From positions 639,930 through 703,929 of the forward strand of contig NZ_LSKU01000001.1 in NCBI RefSeq assembly GCF_001561915.1: 64,000 bases of DNA, written 5' to 3'. This document shows, one piece after another, positions 4,545 through 46,218 of the stretch (within the stretch, counting starts at the first letter, position 1; the number at the start of each line of letters is the position of its first letter). Source of the stretch: Tepidibacillus decaturensis (GTDB taxonomy: Bacteria > Bacillota > Bacilli > Tepidibacillales > Tepidibacillaceae). The position numbers were made by a program, and so were the translations under genes. The notes beneath the pieces were generated by a model that was not told where the DNA came from, searched no databases, and saw only the letters and a program-made list of their open reading frames with translations.

Positions 4545-4816
4545 ATGATTTAATAAGGATCCTGTGAAGGGAAGAGTAGTTAGGAAACGGATAGCCAGAG
4601 AGGGGATGAATAGGCTGAGATCATCTCTCTATTACGACCTAAGGAAAGACATCCTAGAGGACTCTTGGTGAAAATGTTTGGAAGTAACCAAGTAGCGTTT
4701 ACCAACGTTAATGGGAATGAAGTGGGATTTTATCCAAAAAGGGTGGTACCACGGGTGATCTTCGTATCTCTCGTCCCTGATGAAAGAAAAACATCAGGAG
4801 AGGGATTTTTTTATTG
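4545..4816 (+). promoter_or_regulatory. T-box riboswitch leader of hisS-aspS
   Basis: Contains the conserved T-box sequence GGGTGGTACCACGGGT at 4741-4756. A terminator follows, CCTGATG/CATCAGG with an added CTCT/AGAG pair and a T-run (about 4769-4813). An upstream stem I pairs AGAGAG...GATGA with TCATC...CTCTCT. Uncharged cognate tRNA should pair with the specifier and the T-box bulge and prevent termination. In the expected specifier strand (around 4631-4643) I see GAC (Asp, 4636-4638) or ACG, but no clear His codon. Confidence 0.93.
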
Positions 4817-6153: not shown

Positions 6154-7929
6154 ATGTTACTACAAAGAACTCATCAGTGTGGAACACTTAATACAGAACA
6201 TATAGGTGAAGAAGTTGTATTAAGTGGTTGGGTTCAAAAAAGGCGTGACCTTGGGGGACTCATTTTTATCGATTTAAGGGATCGAAGTGGAATTGTTCAA
6301 TTGATCTTCAATCCAGAAGCTTCAAAAGATGCTCATGAGATTGCGGATAAAGCAAGAAACGAATATGTTATTGCTGTAAAAGGGATGGTTGTTAAAAGGG
6401 ATGAAGCAACGATTAACCCAAATATAGCGACAGGAGAAATAGAAATTGATGTAAAAGAGATCCAAATCATCAATGAAGCAAAGAATCCACCCTTTTTCAT
6501 TCAAGATCATATAGATATTGATGAGACTTTGCGTCTAAAATATCGTTACCTTGATTTAAGGCGAAATGAAATGCAAAAAACACTGATATTGCGCCATCAA
6601 GCTATGATCTTTATTCGTAATTTTTTGGATAAACATGGCTTTCTAGATATTGAGACACCGATGCTTACCAAGAGTACACCAGAGGGTGCAAGAGACTATC
6701 TTGTTGCCAGTCGAAAACATCCAGGTCATTTTTTTGCCTTGCCCCAATCCCCACAGTTATATAAGCAACTTTTAATGGTGTCTGGTTTTGAACGATACTA
6801 TCAAATTACACGTTGCTTTAGAGATGAGGATTTGCGTGCAGACCGACAACCTGAATTTACACAAGTGGATATTGAGATGTCCTTTATGCCGTTACAAGAA
6901 TTTCAAGATCTTATGGAAGAAATGATGGTTGGCTTATTCCAAGAAACCATCGGCTACAAAGTTGAGCGTCCTTTTTTACGCATGACTTACCAGGAAGCCA
7001 TGGATCGATATGGTTCAGATAAGCCAGATATTCGCTTTGGTTTAGAATTAAAAGACTTATCTGAGGTCTTAAAAGATAGTGAGTTTAAAGTGTTCAAAAA
7101 TACGATTGAAAACGGGGGGCAAATTAAAGCGATCAATGCAAAGGGTTGTGCCCATTATAGTAGAAAAGAGATTGATCAATTAACAGAATTTGTTACTCGT
7201 TTTGGTGCTAAGGGTCTTGCTTGGCTTGCTTTTAAAGAAGGTGAGGTCAAAGGCTCGATTGCTAAATTTGTGACAGAAGAAGAATTAAAACAAATGAAAG
7301 CCATCCTTGAAGTAGAAAATGGCGACTTACTACTCTTTGTTGCCGATCAAAAGAAAGTGGTGGCGGATGCATTAGGAAATCTGCGTCTTAAATTAGGTAA
7401 AGATTTAAACTTAATACCTCATGATGTTTATCAATTTTTATGGGTGACTGAATTTCCTCTACTTGCTTATGATGACGAAGAGGGAAGATACGTAGCAGAA
7501 CATCATCCATTTACCATGCCAAAAAACGAAGACATTCCATTGTTAGATTCAGACCCAGCTAAGGTGAGAGCTCAAGCTTATGATATGGTGTTGAATGGGT
7601 ACGAATTAGGTGGAGGAAGTATGAGGATTTATAAAAAGGAGATCCAAGAGAAGATGTTTCAGACTTTAGGATTCTCCAAAGAAGAGACTTGGGAAAAATT
7701 TGGCTTTTTATTGGAAGCTTTTGAATATGGAACTCCACCCCATGGAGGAATTGCCTTTGGGTTAGACCGAATCATTATGCTTCTAGCCAAACGAAGCAAT
7801 CTGAGAGATACCATTGCCTTTCCAAAGACAGCTGGAGCCAATTGCTTATTAACAGGTGCCCCAACTCTAGTTGATAGAAAACAGCTAAATGAGCTTCATT
7901 TGCAGATTGAAAAAGATGGCCAAGAATAG
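6154..7929 (+). CDS. aspS: aspartyl-tRNA synthetase
   Basis: 591-aa bacterial-type AspRS: an N-terminal OB fold for the anticodon (about 1-105), the class II core with [12 protein letters not shown] and [14 protein letters not shown], a GAD insertion (about 290-410), and motif 3 near [15 protein letters not shown] sits at 6141-6146 before the ATG. Second gene of the T-box operon. AspRS of organisms lacking AsnRS or with a Gln/Asn amidotransferase may also charge tRNA-Asn; this cannot be judged here. Confidence 0.97.
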
Positions 7930-7967
7930 ACAAGTTAGATTGGTAAAGATTTTGTAACAAAGCCCAC

Positions 7968-7997
7968 TTGATTTTCGGCTTATCCATATGGTAACAT
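7968..7997 (+). promoter_or_regulatory. probable sigma-A promoter of 6S RNA
   Basis: TTGATT (7968-7973), an 18-base spacer and TAACAT (7992-7997), placed to start transcription just ahead of the 5' arm of the 6S RNA. Confidence 0.5.
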
Positions 7998-8007
7998 AAA
8001 ATTACAA

Positions 8008-8205
8008 GTTAACAATAAGAGCCCTAAGTTGTACGTGAAGTACCGACAGTTTTGAGCCAACACCTTTTTTACGGGAGTTCGGGTTCTTTGGTGGATAAGA
8101 AGCCATGATTTATCTTGGACCTATGAAATCAAAGACAGGACACCCACCTGCGAGAGCAGGTTCAAAACCTAGGAAACACGGCATACCCGGGGCTCTTTTT
8201 TTGCT
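8008..8205 (+). ncRNA. ssrS: 6S RNA (SsrS, BsrA type)
   Basis: About 190-nt RNA between aspS and tcdA, the same locus as bsrA in B. subtilis. The closing stem pairs AAGAGCCC (8017-8024) with GGGGCTCTT (8189-8197), which runs into a T-run terminator. Internal arms are interrupted by a large central region, the shape that mimics an open promoter and sequesters sigma-A RNA polymerase in stationary phase. Identified from position, length and terminal pairing, not from a covariance search. Confidence 0.85.
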
Positions 8206-8222
8206 TTTTCTTCAAAAAAAGG

Positions 8223-8256
8223 CATGGATGACGGAGCTTGTTGTAATATACATTTC
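8223..8256 (+). repeat. 34-bp intergenic element, copy A
   Basis: Matches the copy at 16227-16260 at 27 of 34 positions without gaps. The shared core is GGATGACGGAGC followed by AATATACA. It lies between the 6S RNA terminator and tcdA. Nature unknown; it could be a promoter-like or dispersed structural element. Confidence 0.6.
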
Positions 8257-33191: not shown

Positions 33192-33217
33192 AGAACACAT
33201 AATTGAATAGCATGTAT

Positions 33218-33382
33218 GAATAGGTTCTTTTAAGTCATGACTTAAAAGATGAAAAGGGAAGTTCGGTGAAATCCCGACGCGGTCCCGCCACTGTAAATTG
33301 GAAGCATTTCGTGTGATGCCACTGTCATTAAGATGGGAAGGTGCGAAATTGCATTGCCATAAGCCAGGAGACCTGCCTATTC
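33218..33382 (+). promoter_or_regulatory. cobalamin (B12) riboswitch
   Basis: Contains the B12-box core (GACGCGGTCCCGCCACTGTAA near 33277-33297, and AGCCAGGAGACCTGCC near 33362-33377). The closing stem pairs GAATAGG (33218-33224) with CCTATTC (33376-33382). Adenosylcobalamin binding should promote the downstream terminator (33466-33502) and shut off the btu genes. Confidence 0.95.
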
Positions 33383-33465
33383 ATAGAGGAAGCTTATCCT
33401 TCGAGGAAAAGGAAGGCGCCGAGAAAACGTAAATTCTTCATAACGTTTTTCAGCACCATACATAC

Positions 33466-33502
33466 AACCTTTTTTGTCCTTAGGATAAAAAGGGTTTTTT
33501 TA
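33466..33502 (+). terminator. riboswitch-controlled terminator
   Basis: AACC-TTTTT-GTCC / GGA-AAAA-GGGTT stem followed by T7. A second hairpin, GAAAACGT / ACGTTTTTC (33423-33452), precedes it and may act as the antiterminator side. Confidence 0.8.
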
Positions 33503-33564
33503 ATGGTAGGGTACTTTTGTGGATTTTTATTCCTCGACATGCAAAAAAAGAAGGAGAGAAGAGC

Positions 33565-33825
33565 ATGTTGAAAAAAAGTCTTGTCTGGTTGTCAGGATGT
33601 GGAATTGCGAATGATGTATCATCAAAGCAACCTGAAGTACAAACTCCAGCCAACTCAGTATCTAGCATCACAAATTATCCTTCAACGATTACTGATGATT
33701 CAGGTACACAGACTGAAACTTTATTTGCTCTCGGCATCGTTTTAGGAGCACATCGCATTATTGATGGCCTAGAAAGTATTGTCAATGCATTATATCCAGA
33801 TTTGCTAGAGTTGGTTATGGTATGA
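33565..33825 (+). pseudogene. remnant of a BtuF-like B12-binding lipoprotein, 86 codons
   Basis: The reading frame keeps recognisable pieces of an ABC substrate-binding protein in the right order: a basic start with an LSGC lipobox but almost no hydrophobic core, a Ser/Pro linker, NYPSTITDDSG, TETLFALG, and LESIVNALYPDLLEL. The normal protein is about 300 aa; the stretches between these blocks are gone, and the whole domain after the last one too. The deletions keep the frame. The SD AAGGAGAG is good and the stop overlaps the btuC start, so it may still be translated and help start btuC. Confidence 0.7.
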
Positions 33826-34856
33826 ACATGAATAAAAAAATCCTTTTATGGGTTGGAGGGCTTATTCTCCTACTCATGTTTTCCATGATCTTAAGTTTAA
33901 TGATCGGTTCTGTTTCTGTACCACCCAAATTAACCGTGCGAATACTACTTAATCATCTACCATTTTTAAATTTAGAGCCTAATTGGTCAATTGGCCAAGA
34001 ATCTATCGTATGGAATTTACGATTACCAAGAGTTTTCTTAAGCCTGTTAGTTGGAGCAATGTTATCTGTTGCTGGAGTTGCATTCCAAGGGGTTTTACGT
34101 AACCCTTTAGCAGATCCATATATACTGGGTGTTTCGTCTGGGGCTGCACTAGGAGCAGCAATGACCATATTATTTGGACATCAAATCGGATTCCTTGGTC
34201 AATTCAGCCTTCCCCTTTTTGCTTTTATTGGAGCGATTATCTCACTAGGTCTAGTCATTTTATTAACCTCAACTCAGCATATTCGTTCAAATGAGATACT
34301 AATTTTAGCAGGGGTTGTTATTCAAGCTTTTTCGGGAGCAATATTAACTTTTTTAATTGCGTTGTCTGGTGAAAAAATGCAATCGATTATCTTTTGGATG
34401 ATGGGAAGTTTAGCCAACCATGATTGGATAGATGTAAGGATCCTTTTGCCTTATTTTCTAGTTGGTTTATTGTATTTAGGCACGCAATACCGAGAATTAA
34501 ATATATTGGCTTTAGGTGAACAAGCTGCAACACATTTGGGGATCGAAGTAGAGAAGAAAAAGTTTTATATTTTAACCGTTGCTTCATTACTTGCTGCAGC
34601 AGCAGTATCGATTGTTGGTATCATCGGATTTGTTGGTCTGATTATCCCTCATCTTATTCGCTTATTAACTGGACCAAACCATCGGATTTTGCTTCCTATT
34701 TCTACTTTAGCAGGGGCGTTGTTTTTATTGTGGGCTGATACTATAGCTAGAACAATTATTCCTTCAAGAGAAATTCCAATCGGTGTAGTTACAGCAATGA
34801 TCGGTGCACCTTTTTTTGCTTATTTGCTTCGAAAGGGAATAAGGAGAGAACATTAA
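33822..34856 (+). CDS. btuC: cobalamin ABC transporter permease (FecCD family)
   Basis: 344-aa permease with about ten membrane segments. FecCD motifs are present: LRLPRVFLSLLVGAMLSVAG, NPLADPYILGVSSGAALG, and the EAA-like GIIGFVGLIIPHLIRLL. It forms the channel for B12 with the ATPase downstream. B12 specificity is inferred from the riboswitch, since the family also carries iron-siderophores. Start ATG 33822 overlaps the remnant's stop; an ATG at 33828 is also possible. No strong SD, which fits translational coupling. Confidence 0.92.
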   Translation: MNMNKKILLWVGGLILLLMFSMILSLMIGSVSVPPKLTVRILLNHLPFLNLEPNWSIGQESIVWNLRLPRVFLSLLVGAMLSVAGVAFQGVLRNPLADPYILGVSSGAALGAAMTILFGHQIGFLGQFSLPLFAFIGAIISLGLVILLTSTQHIRSNEILILAGVVIQAFSGAILTFLIALSGEKMQSIIFWMMGSLANHDWIDVRILLPYFLVGLLYLGTQYRELNILALGEQAATHLGIEVEKKKFYILTVASLLAAAAVSIVGIIGFVGLIIPHLIRLLTGPNHRILLPISTLAGALFLLWADTIARTIIPSREIPIGVVTAMIGAPFFAYLLRKGIRREH

Positions 34857-35632
34857 TGAAGATTTTTGAGTTGCAAAGCTTATCTTTTAAATATGGAACA
34901 AAGGAAATTTTGTCAGGGATTTCCTTTGAGATAGAACCAGGTGAAAGTTTTGGAATCATTGGGCCTAATGGAAGTGGAAAAAGCACTCTTTTACGAGCGA
35001 TGAGTGGGCTTTTATCAAAATTTGCTGGCGATATTTTTTTACAGGGTAAATCTATTCAATATTACAGCAAGAAGGAACTTGCAAAAGTTATTGCCTTTGT
35101 TGGCCAAGAAGGAACCCCTCCTCTTCCTTTTACTGTACATGAAGTCGTGACCATGGGGAGATATCCTTGGTTAAAACCATTTGCTAATCTCTCTGCTAAA
35201 GATGATGAAGTGATCAAAAACGCGCTGATTTTGATGAATCTCTGGGAAAAAAGAAACAGTCTCATTCAAACTTTATCTGGTGGGGAACGGCAATTAGTGG
35301 CTTTAGCCCGCGCAATGGTACAGGAACCTAAGATTCTTTTTTTGGACGAACCCACCACTTATTTAGATATTGGTCATCAAGTATTGGTATTGCAACTAGT
35401 CAGGAAATGGCAGGAGGAAAAAGGCTTAACCGTGGTCATGGTATTACATGATTTAAATCTGGCGGCACAGTATTGCGATCGGTTATTGCTTATGAAACAG
35501 GGAAATATACAAAGAATCGGCACAGTTGTTGAAGTTCTGAGAAAAGAACATATAGAAGAGGTTTATCAAACAAAAACAATTATGGTGAAACATCCAGAAC
35601 TGGGAATTCCACAGGTTCTGCTACCAAATTAA
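34856..35632 (+). CDS. btuD: cobalamin ABC transporter ATP-binding protein
   Basis: 258-aa ATPase with Walker A GPNGSGKST (about 37-45), Q-loop VGQEG, signature LSGGERQ, Walker B ILFLDEPTTYLD, and the H-loop VLHDLNLA. FepC/BtuD type. Its ATG overlaps the btuC stop by one base (TAATG). A good SD (AAGGAGAG) lies in the end of btuC. Confidence 0.93.
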   Translation: MKIFELQSLSFKYGTKEILSGISFEIEPGESFGIIGPNGSGKSTLLRAMSGLLSKFAGDIFLQGKSIQYYSKKELAKVIAFVGQEGTPPLPFTVHEVVTMGRYPWLKPFANLSAKDDEVIKNALILMNLWEKRNSLIQTLSGGERQLVALARAMVQEPKILFLDEPTTYLDIGHQVLVLQLVRKWQEEKGLTVVMVLHDLNLAAQYCDRLLLMKQGNIQRIGTVVEVLRKEHIEEVYQTKTIMVKHPELGIPQVLLPN

Positions 35633-35705: not shown

Positions 35706-36008
35706 ATGGCGATTGTTGAAGTAACGATTACTCCACTAGGTACTGGAACACCAAGTGTTAGTCATTATGTAGCGGAAGTACATAAGGTTTTGGAGCAAGC
35801 ACCTGAAGCGCTTAAATATCAATTGACTCCTATGAGCACGATTATTGAAGGAGAGCTACAGGATATTTTATCCGTCATTCAAAGAATGCATGAGGTTCCT
35901 TTTGAAAAGGGAGCCTTAAGAGTATCTACTTCAATCAAAATCGATGATCGTCGTGATAAAAAAGCATCGATGGAGCAAAAGCTAAAATCTGTTCAAGAAA
36001 AACTTTAA
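35706..36008 (+). CDS. MTH1187-family thiamine-binding protein (UPF0045)
   Basis: 100-aa protein starting AIVEVTITPLGTGTPSVSHYVAEV, the signature of the MTH1187/YqgV family, which bind thiamine-like ligands in crystal structures. Role unproven. The ATG at 35706 follows AAAGGGGATG. It has a 73-base gap from btuD, so co-transcription with the B12 operon is possible but uncertain. A terminator follows at 36041. Confidence 0.87.
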   Translation: MAIVEVTITPLGTGTPSVSHYVAEVHKVLEQAPEALKYQLTPMSTIIEGELQDILSVIQRMHEVPFEKGALRVSTSIKIDDRRDKKASMEQKLKSVQEKL

Positions 36009-42249: not shown

Positions 42250-42506
42250 GTACAAAAGTAATGCAAAGGAGTAGTAACAAGCCATAGATTTTGAGAGAGT
42301 CGGTGGTTGGTGAGAACCGATAATCAAAAGCTTGCGAACTCGCCTTTAAACTGTAGATAGGAAAGCAAAGTACTCTCTACCGTACCTCTGCGTTAAAGAG
42401 CTCGAGTGGTATTTATGGTTGAGTAGATATCATTAGGGTGGTACCACGGGAAATGTAACCTAACCTCTCGTCCCTAGCACATGCTTTGGGGTGGGAGGTT
42501 TTATTA
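42250..42506 (+). promoter_or_regulatory. T-box riboswitch (leucine) of leuS
   Basis: The T-box sequence AGGGTGGTACCACGGG lies near 42434-42449. A terminator with CCTCTCGTCCC paired to GGGGTGGGAGG and a T-run follows (to about 42505). The specifier strand holds GAACTCGCC, giving CTC (Leu) at 42339-42341. Stem I shows the usual CGGTGGTTGGTGAGAACCG arm. Confidence 0.95.
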
Positions 42507-46113: not shown

Positions 46114-46218
46114 CTCTTATCCAGAGTGGCGGAGGGACTGGCCCGAAGAAGCCCGGCAACCCCACAAGTTAATTGTGAAGGTGCTAATTCCAGCAGACGA
46201 AAGTCTGAAAGATAAGAG
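46114..46218 (+). promoter_or_regulatory. SAM-I (S-box) riboswitch of metY
   Basis: Classic S-box: P1 CTCTTATC (46114-46121) with GATAAGAG (46211-46218), plus the conserved AGAGTGGCGGAGGGACTGGCCC, GAAGCCCGGCAACC and GGTGCTAATTCCAGCAG blocks. SAM binding should allow the terminator just downstream to form. Confidence 0.97.

Follow-up and report, generated by a model that had tools for sequence, protein, structure and literature searches.

BtuF, a lipoprotein of the PF01497 family, is the substrate-binding subunit of the three-part BtuCDF importer. For neighbouring genes read in the same direction, an overlap of 4 nt is the most frequent spacing, and reinitiation by ribosomes that have terminated on the upstream gene falls steeply with distance, with coupling gone within some 20 to 40 nt (PMC10666635, PMC6728339). 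We searched the literature for btuF pseudogenes and for pseudogenes kept for the sake of coupling, and found nothing on point.

The locus described here lies on the forward strand of a 64,000-nucleotide stretch of DNA from Tepidibacillus decaturensis, referred to below as the window. In the place of btuF, it carries an open reading frame of 86 codons directly ahead of btuC, which is, judged from its sequence and surroundings, the decayed remnant of the operon's native btuF. Taking the account as a whole, we consider it probable that this btuF was displaced by way of a shared cob cluster and that its relic has been kept open for coupling to btuC.

The reading frame between the riboswitch and btuC

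The initial annotation had described an intact cobalamin riboswitch, followed by a gutted gene for the B12-binding protein that still kept its frame, its Shine-Dalgarno (SD) sequence and an ATGA overlap with btuC, and all of these points were borne out. The riboswitch aptamer (33205–33394) matches the full RF00174 model, from position 1 to 189, with 118.6 bits, and it is followed by a terminator-like hairpin, AACCUUUUUUGUCCUUAGGAUAAAAAGGGUU, and a T/U run (33465–33507), which would make up the expression platform (RNA fold of 33395–33565, z = −2.6). A strong SD, GAAGGAGA (33551–33558; −9.3 kcal/mol with the anti-SD), precedes the ATG of the relic at 33565, and the 86 codons are open up to a TGA ending at 33825; the end first given for the feature, 33856, falls inside btuC. 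The TGA and the ATG of btuC overlap as ATGA (33822–33825). Both of the following genes are intact: btuC (33822–34856, with 33828 as a possible alternative start) encodes a permease of 344 aa (PF01032, E 5.5e-100), and btuD (34856–35632) encodes an ATPase of 258 aa (PF00005, E 3.3e-33). A gene for a thiamine-binding family protein (PF01910) is located 3′ of btuD, at 35706–36008. Other Rfam matches over the cut-off in the window are two T-box leaders, a SAM riboswitch and 6S RNA (4555–4781, 42252–42478, 46114–46218 and 8018–8197).

For comparison, we used four genomes of the same family (G001 to G004, with the present genome as G000), each of another genus. A cobalamin riboswitch precedes the btu operon in all four, and in G001, G003 and G004, btuF lies directly between this riboswitch and btuC, split over two contigs in the case of G003. 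In G002, the riboswitch adjoins btuC and the operon btuF is completely gone; the PF01910 gene is found beside btuCD in this genome also.

The homology of the relic to BtuF was established from its position and its ordered blocks, and not from a profile match. These blocks (MLKKS, LSGC, NYPSTITDDSGT, TETLFALG, IVLGAH and RIIDGLESIVNALYPDLL) are collinear with the orthologues of G001, G003 and G004 at the same syntenic place, and likewise with the orphan copies described below. The four motifs listed in the initial annotation, LSGC, YPSTITDD, TETLFALG and LESIVNALYPDLL, are thus all present in the order of the relatives' full-length BtuF. A further block had been overlooked: IVLGAH (33736–33753), which comes from the middle of BtuF, corresponds to VILGAH in G004 and VLLGAH in G001 (P about 3e-4 for a random 6-mer). 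It is followed by the C-terminal block RIIDGLESIVNALYPDLL (33754–33807), whose counterpart in the orphan BtuF of this genome is RIIDGLESIAKALYPDLM. Since IVLGAH lies between the two largest deletions, the loss that had been noticed is real, but it amounts to four internal deletions and not to three missing blocks. Calculated from the block positions, these took out about 10 codons (the signal-peptide core), 17, 44 and 168 codons, and all four kept the frame.

The truncated lipoprotein signal, LVWLSGC (33580–33600), retains its lipobox and has lost about 10 residues of the hydrophobic core, so that only about 6 can be read in the sequence; from Met to the lipobox Cys, there are 12 residues, compared with 21 to 24 in the operon BtuF of G001, G003 and G004. 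The other three deletions remove nearly all of both lobes, and the 86-aa product has no Pfam match even at E 10 and no NCBIfam match, in contrast to the orphan BtuF (PF01497, 1.3e-35).

The 3′ end of the gene has changed as well. When the btuF/btuC junctions of G001, G003, G004 and the present genome are aligned, AAG TAG in G001 and G003 falls on GAG TTG in the relic, and in a G001-like ancestor, the change from TAG to TTG alone would let translation continue as far as the TGA within that ATGA. The loss of the ancestral stop therefore created the overlap with btuC and added the last residues of the relic, a read-through tail of L V M V and the stop codon (33811–33825). In a wider survey of 110 btuC loci, a full-length BtuF is encoded upstream in 90 and is missing in 20, and a shrunken relic of btuF was found in no other genome.

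The btuF of the cob cluster

The initial annotation had predicted that BtuCD would need a binding protein encoded elsewhere, and a genome search indeed gave exactly one PF01497 protein, a full-length BtuF-like lipoprotein precursor of 334 aa (G000:C1:2120247-2121248). Its gene lies 1.45 Mb from btuCD, directly 3′ of cobQ, as the last gene of a cob cluster that is led by a cobalamin riboswitch of its own. Its nearest solved structures include the B12-binding BtuF chains 5ysc and 1n2z, and the best-scoring one is 4m7o, named as an iron-binding protein. A genome-wide family search also returned a single FecCD protein, the BtuC of the window, so neither protein has any other partner of its type in the genome. 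From the family, the riboswitch-led cob cluster and this absence of other partners, we infer that the orphan BtuF binds B12 and docks on the resident BtuCD.

Between the present genome and G002, a block of 20.7 kb that holds the cob cluster, btuF included, has 90–94% nucleotide identity, and the btuF stop codon marks the end of the similarity. We took the background divergence of the two genomes from syntenic stretches and from YqeH, which has 68% amino acid identity. The btuCD neighbourhood shows 65–78% nucleotide identity overall, with 64.7% for btuCD and 72.5% for the adjoining 8.9 kb. The similarity of the cob block across genera is thus far above the genome background, which implies horizontal sharing of the cluster, with a xenologous btuF arriving as part of it. 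In G003, cobQ has 72% amino acid identity, without any btuF found next to it, and in G001 and G004 there is no true cobQ match. The branching order within the family in the BtuF tree has support of 0.0 to 0.73.

Several other features of the cluster deserve mention. At its head in G002, two divergent cobalamin riboswitches lie close together (L159, G002:C19, 5811–6005 on the minus strand and 6174–6368 on the plus strand), and the same region has a fluoride riboswitch at 851–915. Mobility at the edge of the shared block is perhaps hinted at by a fragment of a group II intron (L121, G002:C19, 11613–11652), which lies at the end of the contig in G002, some 0.75 kb beyond the orphan btuF. In the present genome, the sequence past the orphan btuF is wholly different from that of G002. 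Just past the stop, on the minus strand, are the remains of a UbiE-like methyltransferase gene (L120, about 7940–8240), which seems, from its sequence, to have been deleted internally out of frame and might offer a contrast to the relic within the same genome. A masked stretch of 2.1 kb, which reads as N (G000:C1:2129790-2131898; L120/L158), interrupts the cluster about 8 bp before a cbiA-like start, at the exact place where G002 is continuous. It looks like an insertion and may cut cobQ-btuF off from the promoter under riboswitch control; because of it, the expression of the distal cob genes, including btuF, is not certain.

With these observations, the most likely sequence of events would be as follows. 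A cob cluster with a full-length btuF as its last gene would have been shared between the genus of the present genome and the sister genus of G002, and the cob-cluster BtuF, if it was able to serve the resident BtuCD, would have made the operon btuF dispensable. In the present genome, the dispensable gene would then have shed the core of its signal peptide and the greater part of the two lobes, as the comparison with the intact genes indicates. Displacement by the btuF of the horizontally shared cluster is, on the sequences compared, very probably the cause of the relic, and the native gene was most likely lost separately in the two genera.

The open frame and the translation of btuC

It had also been suggested that selection keeps translation running into btuC, a proposal that is consistent with the in-frame deletions, the weak SD of btuC and the ATGA overlap. 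At −4.9 kcal/mol, compared with −9.3 for the relic, the SD of btuC is near the weak end among those of the 43 long ORFs of the window, for which the best start was chosen per ORF, a choice biased towards strong values. Where relatives have btuF, the SD of btuC ranges from −3.8 to −5.4 kcal/mol, and in G002, without btuF, it reaches −6.7, with the differences being small and coming from few genomes. As for spacing, 19 of 58 distinct btuF-btuC pairs have a 4-nt overlap, like the ATGA of the present locus, and 43 of the 58 are spaced between −8 and +15 nt. On this view, the remnant would still be translated from its old, strong SD, and ribosomes terminating at its TGA would begin anew at the ATG of btuC that overlaps it. 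Deletions that shift the frame would lower btuC expression and be purged, while those in frame would survive. That all four deletions are in frame, which would happen with a chance of about 1/81 if their lengths were random (a post hoc count in one genome), suggests selection for an open frame. Of the mechanisms considered, the likeliest is that the frame was retained for translational coupling to btuC, and from the sequence features we hold this with roughly even confidence. Slightly short of an even chance, we place the more specific possibility that the dead gene acts as a ribosome loader, with selection on its start signals, open frame and ATGA junction and not on its product, so that the riboswitch-controlled btuC stays translated. 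It was also considered that the btuC start might be hidden by RNA structure, but the relic RNA is not unusually structured (fold z 0.03), and this idea is unsupported.

The strongest competitor is neutral decay, in which the native btuF was replaced in the same manner, the open frame is a matter of luck and recency, and btuC uses its own SD. We regard this as quite possible, if short of an even chance. The decay does look recent, with the retained blocks conserved as in intact genes; relatives that have btuF also have a weak btuC SD, so −4.9 kcal/mol may suffice; and the ordinary structure of the relic mRNA fits as well. The retained blocks show no raised nonsynonymous rate, so the decay may have been too recent for stops to arise, and frame retention in a single genome, with the figure of 1/81 counted after the fact, is weak evidence. 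Nevertheless, neutral decay does not readily account for four in-frame deletions out of four, for a relic in which no stop has arisen, or for the loss of the old stop having given a perfect ATGA overlap, and it is odd that a very recent neutral decay should have brought four distinct deletions and only a few point changes.

The remaining explanations are far less probable. The initial annotation offered a small peptide with a new role. This might be, for instance, a membrane-anchored accessory of BtuCD, and the retained start, SD and lipobox, together with the low dN of the retained blocks, could be taken in this sense. We think this very improbable, as a hydrophobic core of this length probably falls short of what a normal lipoprotein signal needs, the two lobes are almost entirely lost, no profile matches, the 110 btuC loci contain no similar relic, and G002 manages without one. 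Slightly less credible still is the notion that the relic arose by a recent duplication of the cob-cluster btuF, followed by decay, and is not the native operon gene, even if its retained blocks have their top amino acid identity, 79.5%, to the orphan copies, and its KKSLxWLS resembles the orphan of G002. Relative to both orphans, the synonymous sites of the relic are saturated (ps 0.84 and 0.74), with a dN of about 0.13, while the orphans of the present genome and G002 differ from each other by a ps of only 0.25; the saturation together with the low dN points to an old native gene that decayed recently, and not to a copy of an orphan. The position and riboswitch of the relic also fit the ancestral operon, and the native btuF would, from these rates, have been long under purifying selection before its recent decay. 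Finally, an assembly or sequencing artefact concealing an intact btuF is extremely improbable, since assembly errors do not commonly take the form of four separate in-frame deletions, the assembly of 3 contigs reaches 99.3% completeness, and the loss is already explained by the orphan BtuF.

Relation to described systems

We see this locus as a clear case in which one subunit of a transporter has been displaced by a horizontally shared homologue, and as a reminder that the lack of a binding-protein gene beside btuCD need not mean that the importer is broken. The resident btuF was lost in two genera with two end points, namely complete loss in G002, where the SD of btuC is slightly stronger, and an in-frame relic in the present genome, and the pair provides a natural experiment to test if pseudogenes in operons stay open for the sake of translational coupling. 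If the relic does load ribosomes for btuC, it would be a pseudogene selected for its frame and its ends.

In relation to what has been described, the case is a good example of known processes and not a new kind of system. It resembles BtuF in its ordered blocks, operon position and riboswitch control, but with about 240 of some 320 codons gone, the relic cannot form a two-lobed binding protein. It resembles xenologous gene displacement in that a cob cluster with 90–94% identity across genera carries btuF and the resident gene was lost in both genomes; it differs in that one subunit of a three-part transporter was displaced and the new copy is far from btuCD. As in termination-reinitiation at ATGA overlaps (PMC6728339, PMC10666635), there is a −4 nt overlap with a weak downstream and a strong upstream SD; here, however, the upstream partner of the putative coupling, read from the sequence, is a pseudogene relic.
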